Part shown: positions 2,698 through 26,867 of the stretch, in pieces
Layout of the letters: every line of letters begins with the position of its first letter
Numbering within the stretch: position 1 is the stretch's first letter
NCBI GenBank assembly: GCA_015200345.1
Contig: CP054187.1
Span: 2,092,470 to 2,156,469 of the forward strand
Source: Planctomycetia bacterium
Lineage (GTDB): Bacteria > Planctomycetota > Phycisphaerae > UBA1845 > UTPLA1
DNA length: 64,000 nt
Direction: 5' to 3'
Notes under the pieces: model-generated
The model's input: only the letters and a program-made list of their open reading frames with translations
Told to the model about the DNA's origin: nothing
Database searches by the model: none
Translations under genes and position numbers: made by a program

Positions 2698-4458
2698 CTA
2701 CGCCGGAAACTGAAAATCCACCACCTGCATCTCGACGCTGCGGCGGCCGTTCCATTCGTTCAGCGTCGGCTTGAACGCGATCCGGCAGCGGCGATGATCC
2801 AGCAGCATCGGGCGAAACTCGGCCATCCCGAAGGCGATGGCTTTGCAGGTGCAGCGCCCGTCGCTCACCGTGACCTGCATGTGCCGCTCGCCGTTGCCGA
2901 CGAGGCGAGGCTCGCCGACGACGTCGAGCCAGCCGGTGGCGAGCTTGGGGGCCGGGTTCCCGGCCCCGATCGGCTCCAGCCGGCCCAGATCGGCCACGAG
3001 CGATTCATCAAGCTGGTCGAGCCGCACCTCGTCGTCCAAGTGCAGGCGCGGCGCGAGATCAGAATGCGTGAGCACCTGGGCCGCACGAGCCTGAAACGCC
3101 TCGCGAAACGCGTCGATCTTCTCGGTGGCGATCTTCAACCCCGCCGCCATCGCGTGCCCGCCGAAGCTCAACAGATGCCCGCGGCAATCGGCCAGCGCCT
3201 CGACCAGCGAAAAGTTTCGCACGCTGCGCGCCGAACCCTGACCCGTACCGTTATCGACCGCGATCATCACGGCCGGTCGGCCGAACGCATCGGCGATGCG
3301 CGACGCGACGATGCCGATGACGCCGGCGTGCCAACCCTCTGACGCCAGCACGACGGCGCGTACGTGATCGGCATCCTGCTTCTGGGCGATGACCATCTCC
3401 TTCGCCTGCGCGGCGATCTTGCGCTCCAGCGATTGTCGGGCGCGGTTCTGCTGCTCCAGATTCGCGGCGATCTCGGCCGCCAGCGCGTCGTCCGCACGCG
3501 TGAAGAGGTCCACCGCGAGCCGCGCGTGGCCCATGCGACCGATGGCGTTGAGCCGCGGACCGAGCTTGAACCCGATGTCGTAGCCGCTGATGGCCTGCCC
3601 GCCCAGACCGCTCGACGCGATCAGCGCGCGAACGCCGGGCAGCTTGCACGCGCGCAGACCGAGCAGCCCCTTCGCGGCAATCAGGCGATTCTCCCCGAGC
3701 AACGGCACAACATCGGCGACCGTTCCCAGCGCCGCCAGCGCCATCGCGTCAACGAGAAACTCACGAAACGCCTGCGAAACCTTCGCCTGTCCGCCGCAAA
3801 CCTGGCCGACGGCCCAGGCGACCTTGAGCGCGACGCCCGCGCCGGAGAGATTCGGATTCTCATACGCCGCGCCGCCATCGGCGACGAGCGACGCCAGGCC
3901 GGGGTGAACAATCTGCGCATCGGGCAACCTCACCGCGCCGGTCTCGTCCACCTGCGGCTGGTGATGATCGGTGATGATCAGTTCAACCCCCAGTGCCCGC
4001 GCCCGCGCGGCAGCCTCGACCGCCGTGACGCCGCAATCGACCGAGACGATCAACTCGGCTCCTTCGGCGGCGAGCGTTTCAATCGCCGCAACGTTCAGAC
4101 CGTACCCTTCTTCGAGGCGATGGGGGATGTAAAATTCGGCCGCACCACCGGCGAGGCGAACGGCGTGCCAGAGGATGGCCGTACCGGTGACGCCGTCGAC
4201 GTCGTAGTCGCCGTAAATGACGATTTTCTTTTTTTCGCGGATGGCTCGCACGATCCGCTCGGCGGCGGGCATCGTGCCGGGCAAAAGCTCGGGAGCGAGC
4301 AGATCGGACGCGGCGGGTTTGAGAAACTTTCGCGCGCCGGCCTCGTCGGAGACACCACGGTTGCAGAGCACTTGCGCTACGACCGGCGAGATTCGCAGCG
4401 CTGCGGCGAGCGCGTCCCTGCCGGGCGCCGGTGCTGCGATGACCCAATCCATGGGCAT
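2698..4458 (-). CDS. recJ: Single-stranded-DNA-specific exonuclease RecJ
   Basis: RecJ degrades single-stranded DNA 5' to 3' in recombination and mismatch repair in the cytoplasm. The 586-residue product has the DHH-family phosphoesterase motifs in order: DYDVDG (manganese ligands), then TDHHQP, and the C-terminal DHHA1 motif SFGGHAMAAG, followed by an OB-like tail. The frame is open upstream to 4896, but that extension would run through the divergent trpF gene, so the start is placed at the ATG at 4458 (protein begins MPMDW), with a purine-rich stretch just upstream. The length matches normal RecJ (about 560-590 residues). Neighbouring trpF is divergent. Confidence 0.96.
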   Translation of the reverse strand: MPMDWVIAAPAPGRDALAAALRISPVVAQVLCNRGVSDEAGARKFLKPAASDLLAPELLPGTMPAAERIVRAIREKKKIVIYGDYDVDGVTGTAILWHAVRLAGGAAEFYIPHRLEEGYGLNVAAIETLAAEGAELIVSVDCGVTAVEAAARARALGVELIITDHHQPQVDETGAVRLPDAQIVHPGLASLVADGGAAYENPNLSGAGVALKVAWAVGQVCGGQAKVSQAFREFLVDAMALAALGTVADVVPLLGENRLIAAKGLLGLRACKLPGVRALIASSGLGGQAISGYDIGFKLGPRLNAIGRMGHARLAVDLFTRADDALAAEIAANLEQQNRARQSLERKIAAQAKEMVIAQKQDADHVRAVVLASEGWHAGVIGIVASRIADAFGRPAVMIAVDNGTGQGSARSVRNFSLVEALADCRGHLLSFGGHAMAAGLKIATEKIDAFREAFQARAAQVLTHSDLAPRLHLDDEVRLDQLDESLVADLGRLEPIGAGNPAPKLATGWLDVVGEPRLVGNGERHMQVTVSDGRCTCKAIAFGMAEFRPMLLDHRRCRIAFKPTLNEWNGRRSVEMQVVDFQFPA

Positions 4459-4627
4459 GTTCCGTTCCCTGTTTTCAGCGCCGAGGCCTATCGCCACCGG
4501 TGAACACGCGAGCAACGCCTTGCGGGCGACGCCGCAAATGGTACGCTCGCCGGCGCCCGTGACAAGTTCGATTTGATTTTGAATCGGCCGCGGCGCGAAA
4601 AACGCTGAATCCCGCGGGAAATCGCCC

Positions 4628-5299
4628 ATGGTGCGGATCAAGATTTGCGGAATCACGCAGGCGCAGGACGCCGTCGCCGCCGCCGAGGCCGGCGCGGACG
4701 CGATCGGTCTGGTCTTCGCGCCCTCTCCGCGGCGCGTCACGCTCGTCGCCGCGAAGCAAATCGTCCGCGCGCTGCCCCCGTGGATTTCGGCGGTGGGCGT
4801 CTTTGTTAACGCGGAACCATCCACGATCCGCCGAGCGATCGACACCGTCGGCATCGGTGAAGTGCAGCTGCACGGCGAAGAATCACCCGAGATCATCGCG
4901 AAACTAGCTGGCGTTCGCGTGATTCGCGCACTGCGTGTGCGTGACCGCCGATTCCTTGAAGATTTGCGAATTTGGCATCAGGCCGGCGTATCGGCAATTC
5001 TCCTGGACGCTTTTTCCAAGGACGTGCGCGGCGGCAGCGGAAAACGGTTCGACTGGGATCTCGTGTCTGCGATCCGGCTTGGCGATGCGATCCCCGCCGG
5101 CGTGCGATTGATCCTGGCGGGAGGGCTGACGCCTGATAATGTCGCTTCGGGAATCCGCGCGGTCCGGCCGTGGGGCGTGGATGTGTCCAGCGGCGTCGAA
5201 ACGCGACCCGGCCTGAAGAGTGCCGAGAAGATCGAGCGCTTCGTCGCAGCGGTGCGCAGCGCGGGTGATAATCGGCCCAGTCGGCGTCGAACGCGCTGA
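4628..5299 (+). CDS. trpF: Phosphoribosylanthranilate isomerase
   Basis: TrpF carries out the Amadori rearrangement of phosphoribosylanthranilate to CdRP, third step of tryptophan synthesis from chorismate. The 223-residue product starts with the family signature KICGIT, whose Cys is the general base, and shows TIM-barrel features: GADAIGLVF, GVFVN, VQLHG, ILLDAF and the phosphate-binding ILAGGLTPDNV near the end, followed by GVDVSSGVE. The length is normal. The gene stands alone: trpC is about 30 kb away at 35.3 kb and no other trp gene is in the window, so the pathway is dispersed in this organism. Confidence 0.96.
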   Translation: MVRIKICGITQAQDAVAAAEAGADAIGLVFAPSPRRVTLVAAKQIVRALPPWISAVGVFVNAEPSTIRRAIDTVGIGEVQLHGEESPEIIAKLAGVRVIRALRVRDRRFLEDLRIWHQAGVSAILLDAFSKDVRGGSGKRFDWDLVSAIRLGDAIPAGVRLILAGGLTPDNVASGIRAVRPWGVDVSSGVETRPGLKSAEKIERFVAAVRSAGDNRPSRRRTR

Positions 5300-7793: not shown

Positions 7794-9404
7794 ATGGATA
7801 TTCTTCCGACACACGTACGAACAAACGACCCCGCCTTTGTCGAAAACGCCGCGCACCTGCGCGGCCTCGTGGACGATCTCAAATCGAAACTGGCGACGGT
7901 CAAACTCGGCGGCGGCGAGGCGGCGGTGCAGAAGCATCGCGCCCGCGGCAAGCTGTTCGTCCGCGATCGCATCGAACGATTGATCGACCCGGACAGCCCC
8001 TTCCTGGAATTCAGCGCCTTGGCCGCATGGGAGATGTACGACGGCGAGGCGCCCGGCGCGGGGATCGTCACCGGCATCGGGCGTGTCTGCGAGCGCGAAT
8101 GCGTCATCGTGGCCAACGATGCGACGGTGAAGGGCGGCACGTATTACCCCATCACGGTGAAGAAGCACCTGCGAGCGCAGGAGATCGCGCGGGAGAATCA
8201 CCTGCCGTGTATCTACCTGGTTGATTCGGGCGGGGCGTTTCTGCCGCTTCAGGCCGACGTTTTCCCCGACAAGGAGCATTTCGGGCGAATCTTCTTCAAC
8301 CAGGCACAGATGTCGGCGCGGAACATTCCGCAGATCGCCGTCGTGCTCGGCTCCTGCACCGCGGGCGGAGCATACGTCCCCGCGATGAGCGACGAATCGG
8401 TGATCGTGCGCAACCAGGGAACGATCTTTCTCGGCGGTCCGCCGCTGGTGAAAGCGGCGACGGGAGAGGAAGTCACGGCCGAGGAACTGGGCGGCGCCGA
8501 CGTTCACTGCCGCACGAGCGGCGTCACAGACCATTACGCGCAAAACGATGATGACGCCCTCGCCATCACGCGGCACATCGTGGAGCATCTTGGCGCGCCG
8601 CGGCGCACCGAGCTGAAGATGATGCCGCCCGAGGACCCGGCCTACGACCCGGCCGAAATCTACGGCATTCTCCCAAAAGACATTCGCAAGCCGTACGACG
8701 TGCGCGAGATCATCGCGCGGATCGTGGACGGCAGCCGGTTTCACGAATTCAAGGCGCTGTACGGCTCGACGGTCGTCTGTGGCTTGGCGCACCTCTGGGG
8801 CTACCCCGTCGGTATCGTTGGTAACAACGGCGTACTGTTCCGCGAGAGCGCCCAGAAGGCGGCGCATTTCATCGAGATGTGCAGCGTGCGCGGCGTGCCG
8901 CTCATCTTCCTGCAAAACATCACCGGCTTCATGGTCGGCAAGGCGTACGAGTCCGGCGGTATCGCCAAGGACGGCGCGAAGATGGTCGCGGCCGTCAGCA
9001 ACGCGGCCGTGCCGAAGTTCACCGTCATCATCGGCGGGTCGTATGGCGCGGGGAACTACGGCATGTGCGGTCGGGCGTTTGGCCCGCGGATGCTCTGGAT
9101 GTGGCCCAACGCGCGGATCAGCGTCATGGGCGGGGAGCAGGCGGCCAACGTGCTGCTGACCGTGAAGAAGGACCAGCTCGCGCGCGAGAAGAAGAAAGCG
9201 ATGACCGCCGCGGAGGAGGAAGCCTTCAAGCAGCCGACGCTGGAGAAATATGCCCACGAGAGCAGCGCCTATTACAGCACGGCGCGGCTGTGGGACGACG
9301 GCGTGATCGACCCGGTCGACACCCGCCGCGTGCTGGCGCTGGGCATCGCGGCGTCGTTGAACGCGCCGTTCCCGAAGCGCCGCGTGGGCGTGTTCAGAAT
9401 GTAG
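7794..9404 (+). CDS. Methylcrotonoyl-CoA carboxylase, beta (carboxyltransferase) subunit
   Basis: This 536-residue acyl-CoA carboxylase carboxyltransferase transfers CO2 from biotin to 3-methylcrotonyl-CoA in leucine and isovalerate breakdown. It shows the two crotonase-like halves: [17 protein letters not shown] and [16 protein letters not shown] in the first, and [34 protein letters not shown] and [13 protein letters not shown] in the second, which are typical of the MCC beta subunit rather than propionyl-CoA carboxylase. The open frame begins at 7746, but MDILPTHV at 7794 fits the family. It opens a five-gene set with a hydratase, alpha-subunit parts and HMG-CoA lyase, which supports methylcrotonyl-CoA as the substrate. 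Substrate choice is inferred from motif style and context (liuB/mccB equivalent). Confidence 0.93.
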
Positions 9405-25153: not shown

Positions 25154-26029
25154 ATGACCTCGAGACCTGCTACGATTCGCAACATCTTCGTCCGGAGCAA
25201 GCCGGCATCTTTCGTCGCCTTGAGCCTTGCCCTGCTGCTTCCGCTCGGTTGCAGCATGGGCTCCGTCGTCTGGGTCGAACAGACCGAGGACATGCAGATT
25301 GACGCGGCCCGCCTCAAGAAGCTCGCCGTGAAGACCCACAACGGCACGGTCAATTACAACGGTAGCGCCGGCAGCGCGAGCACCATTCAGGTCAAGATCA
25401 CCAAGAAAACCGGCGGCCTGACCCAGGCCGACGCCGAAGAGGCCATGGCCAACCTCGACGTCTTCAACGAGGCTGACGGCACCGAAGGCCGCGTGATCAA
25501 TCACCGCTGGAAGGGGGTCTGCAAGTCAAACTGGAACGCGCAGGTCAGCTACGAAATCAGCGGACCGGACAGCTTGGCGCTCGACATCGAATCGCACAAC
25601 GGCGCGACGACGGTGCGCGGGCTGAAGTCCTCTCTTCGCGTCACCTCTCACAACGGACGAATCGATACCGAGTCCACAGGCCCGTCGGCCCACGTCGAGT
25701 CGCACAATGGCGCGATCAACGTTTCCTACGAAGGCCCCAGCATTCACGCGACGACCCACAACGGACCAGTGACGGCCGACCTCTCGCGCTGCGCGGCGAT
25801 CGGCGGTGAAATCGGCGCCCACAACGGCCAAGTCGTCGTCCGCGTCGGCGATCAAACCAGCGCCAACCTCGCCTGCCAGACCCACAATGGCAGCGTCGAT
25901 GTAGACATCGCCGCAGGATGGAAGGTATCTCACGCGTCGCGCACCCGCCTGGCCGGCGTGCTGGGCGACGGCGGCCAGCCGCTCAACGTCACGACGCACA
26001 ACGGGAAGGTGAAAATTCAGGCGAATTAA
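25154..26029 (+). CDS. Lipoprotein with eight HNG beta-ladder repeats (DUF4097-like)
   Basis: The 291-residue protein starts with a lipoprotein signal ending LLLPLGC (Cys33). From about residue 62 the tripeptide HNG recurs eight times (THNGTVNY, SHNGATTV, SHNGRIDT, SHNGAINV, THNGPVTA, AHNGQVVV, THNGSVDV, THNGKVKI), first after a 90-residue domain and then every 17-25 residues. The xHNGxVxV rhythm suits a right-handed beta-solenoid in which each Asn-Gly forms the turn and each Val-x-Val an inward strand, as in DUF4097 putative adhesins. Cys pairs (118; about 205 and 232) may form bonds. It is probably on the outer membrane or in the periplasm. AAGGA precedes the ATG. Confidence 0.8.
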   Translation: MTSRPATIRNIFVRSKPASFVALSLALLLPLGCSMGSVVWVEQTEDMQIDAARLKKLAVKTHNGTVNYNGSAGSASTIQVKITKKTGGLTQADAEEAMANLDVFNEADGTEGRVINHRWKGVCKSNWNAQVSYEISGPDSLALDIESHNGATTVRGLKSSLRVTSHNGRIDTESTGPSAHVESHNGAINVSYEGPSIHATTHNGPVTADLSRCAAIGGEIGAHNGQVVVRVGDQTSANLACQTHNGSVDVDIAAGWKVSHASRTRLAGVLGDGGQPLNVTTHNGKVKIQAN

Positions 26030-26138: not shown

Positions 26139-26525
26139 ATGTACAAGCTCGGCTTGATCTTCCTCGGTTCCGGACTGGGCGGCGTCGCGCGGTTCACCGT
26201 CGCCGGTGCGGCACAGCGATTGAACCCGCAGGCAGGCTTTCCGATCGGTACGCTGCTCGTCAACCTCACCGGGTGCCTGGCAATCGGATTCCTCTCCGCC
26301 GCGCTGGCAAGCCGCTCGCTGATGCGTGAAGAATTTCGCATAGCACTGCTGGTGGGTGTGCTTGGCGGATACACGACTTTTTCGACATTTGGCTGGGAAA
26401 CGTTTGCGATGCTCAACGGCGGGCAGTTTGTCCGCGCGGCGATGAACGCACTGTTCAGCGTCATCGGTTGTCTAACTGCCGTATGGGCCGGCTATCGCAC
26501 GGCACAATACTGGCTGGGAGCCTGA
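26139..26525 (+). CDS. crcB: Fluoride ion channel CrcB (Fluc)
   Basis: CrcB exports fluoride. The 128-residue protein has four membrane helices with the family motifs GSGLGGVARF, GTLLVNLTGC, GVLGGYTTFSTFGWE (the TTFST polar track lining the pore) and a final WAGYRTA segment. The length is that of a normal single Fluc subunit, which would dimerise in antiparallel fashion. A DUF190 gene follows four bases later, a common pairing. No fluoride riboswitch was recognised in the 109 bases upstream. Confidence 0.96.
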   Translation: MYKLGLIFLGSGLGGVARFTVAGAAQRLNPQAGFPIGTLLVNLTGCLAIGFLSAALASRSLMREEFRIALLVGVLGGYTTFSTFGWETFAMLNGGQFVRAAMNALFSVIGCLTAVWAGYRTAQYWLGA

Positions 26526-26528
26526 TCC

Positions 26529-26867
26529 ATGAAGATTCCCGAACAAGGCTGGTTGCTGCGCGTGTTCATCGGCGAGTCGGATACATGGCAGGGCCGACCG
26601 CTGTACGAAGCGATCGTACTCAAAGCGCGCGAGCTTCACTTGGCCGGCGCAACCGTGCTGCGCGGCTTGATGGGCTTCGGCGCAAACAGCCGCCTGCACA
26701 CGGCCAAGATTCTGCGGCTGTCGGAAGACCTGCCGATGGTGATCGAAATCGTCGACGCGCGCGAGAAGATCGATCCGTTGTTGCCGTTTATTGACCAGGT
26801 GGTGGGCGAGGGACTGGTGACGCTGGAACCGGTAGAAGTCATTCGCTACCGCGGCAAAACGCCTTGA
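26529..26867 (+). CDS. DUF190 family protein
   Basis: The 112-residue protein matches the DUF190 pattern: LRVFIGESDTWQGRPLYEAIV near the start, GATVLRGLMGFG, then LPMVIEIVDAREKI. The fold is a PII-like ferredoxin alpha/beta trimer. In other genomes DUF190 genes travel with crcB, as here (three bases between them), so a soluble regulator or accessory of fluoride export is plausible; ligand and mechanism are not known to me. No membrane segment or signal is present. Confidence 0.9.
   Translation: MKIPEQGWLLRVFIGESDTWQGRPLYEAIVLKARELHLAGATVLRGLMGFGANSRLHTAKILRLSEDLPMVIEIVDAREKIDPLLPFIDQVVGEGLVTLEPVEVIRYRGKTP

Follow-up and report, generated by a model that had tools for sequence, protein, structure and literature searches.

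Toastrack (DUF4097) domains are described as pan-bacterial, with the structures 4QRK and 4OPW given as examples; they are reported to turn up repeatedly alongside PspA, PspC and Lia partners and are seen there as intracellular (PMC11237479). Most of them are without known function. Among beta-helices, a designed protein bearing lysine ladders reportedly binds membranes (PMC12081914).

The window analysed here, meaning the whole stretch of 64,000 nucleotides, contains an open reading frame with exact boundaries whose 291-residue product belongs with these proteins. An earlier note on this DNA had described a lipoprotein built from eight turns bearing His-Asn-Gly (HNG) at near-regular spacing. 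The features are as follows, the corners being placed by motif count, alignment of relatives and the AlphaFold2 (AF2) model.

25154..26029, + strand: gene for a Toastrack (DUF4097) His-ladder protein, a candidate lipoprotein of 291 residues (Pfam PF13349, AF2, Toastrack-type PDB matches)
25154..25252, + strand: signal-peptide-like N-terminus ending at 25252 with Gly32-Cys33, Cys33 being likely lipidated (24-sequence alignment)
25337..25345, + strand: HNG corner 1 (H62)
25346..25594, + strand: N-terminal Toastrack part between corners 1 and 2; contains a helix as well as conserved W119, W127 and P138 (alignment, model)
25595..25603, + strand: HNG corner 2 (H148)
25649..25657, + strand: HNG corner 3 (H166)
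25703..25711, + strand: HNG corner 4 (H184)
25757..25765, + strand: HNG corner 5 (H202)
25820..25828, + strand: HNG corner 6 (H223)
25883..25891, + strand: HNG corner 7 (H244), the least conserved His (16/30 sequences)
25997..26005, + strand: HNG corner 8 (H282)

HNG occurs exactly eight times, as the earlier note had counted, at residues 62, 148, 166, 184, 202, 223, 244 and 282, with spacings of 86, 18, 18, 18, 21, 21 and 38; the near-regular ladder thus holds for the six from 148 to 244, but the first and last lie farther off. In 200,000 shuffles of the sequence beyond the signal region the count reached four HNG at most, and a DNA pattern of three HNG at 18-codon steps, matched twice in the window and both times inside this gene, had no match in 100 shuffles, so that chance is ruled out for the eight. 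The signal region and the Gly-Cys are consistent with a lipoprotein. The N-terminus reads as hydrophobic and signal-peptide-like, Gly32 and Cys33 are invariant in 24 aligned sequences (alignment A1; in another alignment, A4, the row for L034 begins just past its Cys), and under a loose pattern 44 of 45 His-row proteins have [GAS]C ahead of corner 1; against this, Pro at -3 is atypical for a lipobox and the strict lipobox pattern missed Cys33.

The fold is assigned by profile, predicted model and structure matches. PF13349 (DUF4097 'Toastrack') scores 30.0 bits (E 4.4e-7) against a curated cut-off of 22.9, which the relatives L003, L016, L029 and L030 likewise exceed. AF2, run with nine sequences, predicts a beta-helix (mean pLDDT 89.5, pTM 0.86) in which, numbering the mature protein from Cys33 as residue 1, the His lie at 30, 116, 134, 152, 170, 191, 212 and 250 and strands end at 29, 115, 133, 151, 169, 190, 211 and 249; since these ends sit one residue before each His, each HNG opens a corner directly behind a strand. 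In this model corners 1 and 2 are separated by 86 residues that include a helix at 59-68, a coil lacking HNG lies between 212 and 250, and confidence falls to 70-82 in the last 60 residues, the site of corners 7 and 8. Foldseek and VIA-align match the model to 3PET, 3LJY, 4OPW, 3LYC and 4QRK, with VIA Z scores of 15.4 for 3PET, 14.8 for 4OPW and 12.3 for 4QRK; for the two Toastrack examples, with VIA Z of 12.3 and 14.8, Foldseek gives E 8.8e-6 and 2.4e-4. Searching the PDB by sequence returned nothing usable, the one match being at chance level.

Across 242 [TS]xNG corners in 30 sequences, a count conditioned on T/S, N and G, charged residues never occur at offsets -5, -3, +4 and +6, where 86-98% are hydrophobic, and offsets -4, -2, +3 and +5 are 31-50% charged; the alternating hydrophobic strand that had been read after each HNG is borne out, and the His falls in the outward phase. 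The beta-solenoid that the earlier note envisaged is supported by the predicted beta-helix and its Toastrack-type matches, with HNG at equivalent corners. The outcome that the note named as refuting, His at scattered sites, is not what the model gives: all eight directly follow a strand. Stacking is suggested because the corners are equivalent in the model and the in/out residue pattern agrees; as modelled, the His row along the HNG corners is real. By such a row the protein might bind metal or carbohydrate, as the earlier note conjectured.

Searching 101 genomes, the window's own among them, with the protein gave hits at E 1e-3 or better in 72, and the named relatives are Planctomycetota and Phycisphaerae assemblies. 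Among the 30 best loci, again including the window's own, Asn and Gly occupy all eight corners in every one and His is found at corners 1-8 in 27, 30, 29, 28, 26, 29, 16 and 25. Two relatives have extra corners, nine HNG in L021 and eleven in L030 (1402-2481, + strand), where two near-identical extra coils provide a natural case of solenoid growth. Across the phylum, 10 of 392 genomes contain three HNG at 18-codon steps, with a single match in one genome for the reversed control. Family counts by PF13349 are lower bounds, because the six-frame search missed the window's own gene (no match in its genome, G000); they include 25 loci lacking HNG, counted after leaving out as repeats L055, L061, L073, L074 and L078, three of which are His-row genes. 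A pattern with any residue before Asn-Gly, which also matches low-complexity and RTX-like repeats and the reversed control and was used solely to fetch loci, led to 30 loci that were read: six with His rows, 17 with Ser rows and seven unrelated repeats. The window's genome also has a Toastrack-like paralogue lacking the NG row (L157, G000:C1:2293414-2294154, - strand), and in L166 (G265:C43:29265-30122) profile alignment alone gives the corner as H-H-G, the turn Asn being replaced by His. Farther afield, an archaeal DUF4097 protein (Haloarcula) has mixed corners, and Streptomyces plasmids, of which 17 records match, encode proteins with five or six HNG in the C-terminal half (L228, L229, L230), in which no signal peptide was seen by eye and which score 17.4-19.3 bits against DUF4097, below the cut-off of 22.9; having been found through similarity to the His protein, they say nothing on how frequent His rows are.

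The residue before Asn-Gly, here called x, was read by profile alignment in 136 Toastrack proteins, of which 132 showed no more than two gaps at x and 124 remained below 70% identity. Row types among the 136 comprise His, Ser, Thr (L207, L208), Arg (L142), Asp/Gly (L140, L141) and some mixtures, and rows that are all Ser, all Arg, mostly Gly or mostly Thr exist among related proteins. The close homologue L142 (G046, 4127-4912, + strand) has Arg at all eight corners (TRNG/SRNG; row RRRRRRRR), L140 reads DDGGGGGG, and L145 (G090, ORF 8086-9099, - strand) has the profile row HHHHRRRR with six HNG and three RNG in the gene; L138 (EDDAESSA), L193, L213 and L217 are also mixed. In the 124 proteins x is identical between corners of the same protein at 0.560, as against 0.219 between proteins and a mean of 0.222 (largest 0.245) in 2000 column shuffles; most of these proteins were gathered through queries from the His family, they share ancestry, and the shuffles ignore kinship. 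Because related rows inflate the comparison with shuffles, more weight is put on how one position differs from another within this protein set: the within-protein excess is 0.164 at +1 and 0.106 at +3, and no more than 0.02 in the strands, from -6 to -3 and from +5 to +7, so that the rungs were not recently copied. The effect persists in the 29 proteins where a residue other than His or Ser is commonest at x, with identities within and between proteins of 0.269 versus 0.102 at x and 0.557 versus 0.246 at +1. Position +3 is more alike within proteins inside both the His and Ser sets, at 0.211 in 46 His-row proteins against 0.123 after column shuffles, a value reached in none of 1000.

Codons and phylogeny bear on how such rows arise. 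Both TCN and AGY codons are present in 43 of 44 Ser rows, and the Arg codons of L142 are all CGY, using both CGC and CGT, each one transition from CAY; the mixed codons of the Ser rows and of this Arg row indicate that separate point changes with selection at the amino-acid level, and not DNA copying, keep the rows uniform. In a tree of 99 proteins with x masked (25 of the 124 were left out, having five Asn corners at most or no more than six residues at x), 47 rows form the clade holding the His rows (support 100/98), and Ser rows are the sister group to the His-row homologues. Inside the His clade the all-Arg L142 groups with the His rows L024 and L026 (97/92), and L138 and L140 adjoin the His row L023 (99/87). 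The His/Ser split has support of 100/97 unmasked and 100/98 in the 99-protein tree, but weak support with x masked and fewer rows (83/40, 79% of bootstraps). One all-His protein of another family, L044, fell among the Ser rows, with a long-branch warning; a second, separate origin of His rows is possible on this placement. As relatives swap the whole row to Ser, Arg or Gly, these comparisons suggest that the requirement is for agreement along the row and not for His as such, and self-matching is a stronger regularity than the His geometry recorded earlier.

On balance we consider it slightly more probable than not that a matched edge serves both packing and multivalent docking. The gene would yield an exported lipoprotein, presumably tethered by Cys33, whose Toastrack beta-helix, probably right-handed, is predicted and matched to solved structures. 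Asn-Gly would make a tight corner, with the residue before it pointing outward at the strand end, as the residue pattern indicates, and the His, at corners equivalent in the model, would stack as a one-per-coil row along one edge. Sequences and tree show that selection keeps a self-matching row of His, Ser, Thr, Arg or Gly according to lineage, and that in the His clade the row has been exchanged nearly whole. Like-with-like stacking would stabilise the edge and give it a uniform chemistry, titratable and cationic when the row is His or Arg and neutral polar when it is Ser, Thr or Gly, and an extended partner in the envelope may dock on the row as on a multivalent strip. More tentatively, the one-per-coil outward row, bound to be uniform, could be an interchangeable Toastrack 'edge code', exchanged nearly whole and determining the extended polymer or membrane surface to which the solenoid docks; its changes, His to Arg, His to Gly and separately Ser and Thr, would then have come about through many point mutations under selection for self-match.

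Against the matched-edge reading, neighbour genes differ between lineages, some rows are mixed, and the model is less confident where corners 7 and 8 lie. The uniform rows could also be purely structural, a turn element in which identical residues stack for best packing and no ligand is involved. We rate this a substantial possibility, if short of probable. It would account for Asn and Gly being invariant and x lineage-dependent, with +1 and +3 also alike within proteins, and it accords with the Asn ladders and stacked like residues described in beta-helices (PMC12081914); yet the all-Arg row of L142 would be electrostatically costly, an all-Gly row would hardly stack, and among outward positions x is by far the best conserved.

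Rather unlikely, in our judgement, is a third account, in which the His row binds metal, haem or corrinoid and hands it to an ABC importer; these three readings overlap, and the probabilities we attach to them need not sum to one. Its main support lies in the 47 relative regions fetched (20 + 18 + 9; four with non-His homologues, several cut by contig ends), of which 10, all of family f8, show co-oriented genes for a BtuF/FecB-like periplasmic binding protein and a FecCD permease immediately upstream, five with an ATPase between the two. The named models that fit these genes best describe importers of vitamin B12, haem and iron chelates, with scores short of the equivalog cut-offs, and calcium-binding RTX beta-rolls are among the fold-search matches. 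The link to FecCD importers is real but local to this one family, where general synteny may explain it: neither the window nor its genus relative L079 has the pair, and the FecCD genes of the window's genome sit elsewhere. The window gene is instead divergent from an export cluster of HlyD-type adaptor, ABC ATPase and candidate permease, and lies upstream of crcB and a DUF190 gene, which adjoin at 26139-26867 (+ strand); Rfam found no match in the window and no riboswitch at crcB/DUF190. Among relatives it likewise gave no cobalamin riboswitch and nothing else but a group II intron in six regions. Rows of Arg, Gly or Ser cannot bind metal in the manner proposed, and His as a required ligand is disfavoured because close homologues have Arg (8/8) or Asp/Gly and the sister group Ser. 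Adjacent-layer His may, moreover, be too far apart for one Zn, since cryo-EM of His-bearing fibrils is reported to place same-column His of adjacent layers 4.7-5.7 A apart, too far for one catalytic Zn site (PMC10008563).

Two observations from these regions stand apart. In L082 the group II intron (1377-1666, - strand; two Rfam matches) lies just downstream of the HNG gene, and two FecCD permeases have an acidic, EF-hand-like N-terminal stretch (L088, 8607-9752, + strand; L080, 8092-9222, + strand), EF-hand models being below cut-off in the former and giving no score in the latter.

A part in an envelope-stress system of the phage-shock (PSP/Lia) type, as proposed for Toastrack domains generally, would fit their recurrence with PspA, PspC and Lia partners, but we think it quite improbable: PspA and PspC have no match in the window's genome (one contig, 96% complete; controls gave matches), the LiaG model NF049997 scores 24.7 bits against a cut-off of 285, and the HNG protein has a putative export signal and Gly-Cys where the cited account has the domain inside the cell. 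That the repeats are relics of recent duplication or gene conversion is very improbable as a general cause, for although coils do duplicate, as in L030, the flanking strands show no homogenisation and codons of both Ser blocks occur together within rows.

A position uniform within proteins and variable between lineages points to the working edge of a fold whose function is mostly obscure. The rows also offer a natural example in which many residues change in concert and copying at the DNA level plays no part, which is useful for thinking about repeat-protein evolution and beta-solenoid design.

Among known systems, the protein is nearest to Toastrack/DUF4097, which includes B. subtilis LiaG, by its PF13349 score, predicted beta-helix and matches to 4QRK, 4OPW and 3PET; it differs in its signal-peptide-like N-terminus with Gly-Cys, in its uniform His row, in a genome lacking PspA and PspC, and in falling far below the LiaG cut-off. 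The Bacteroidales 'putative adhesin' structures (3PET, 3LJY, 4OPW, 3LYC) share its architecture, with VIA Z of 14.2-15.4 across about 205 residues, but are 11-14% identical in the alignment. Calcium-binding RTX beta-rolls are also solenoids with a repeated turn motif, their hallmark being GGxGxDxUx nonapeptide repeats; the translated HNG protein has none of these, and the fold match to its model is weaker (7RAH Z 10.1, serralysins about 7.5). The literature search found no paper joining a beta-helix with a histidine ladder or stacked histidine, and among the matches listed for DUF4097 or toastrack with metal or haem neither name appeared in the papers. His-bearing catalytic amyloids likewise present outward His on stacked strands, but are described as synthetic fibrils whose Zn site probably depends on another layer of peptide (PMC10008563). 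Asn ladders and the designed Lys-ladder beta-helix also stack like residues one per coil (PMC12081914); what sets the HNG type apart from the ladders described there is an outward row before Asn-Gly that switches identity as a unit between lineages.
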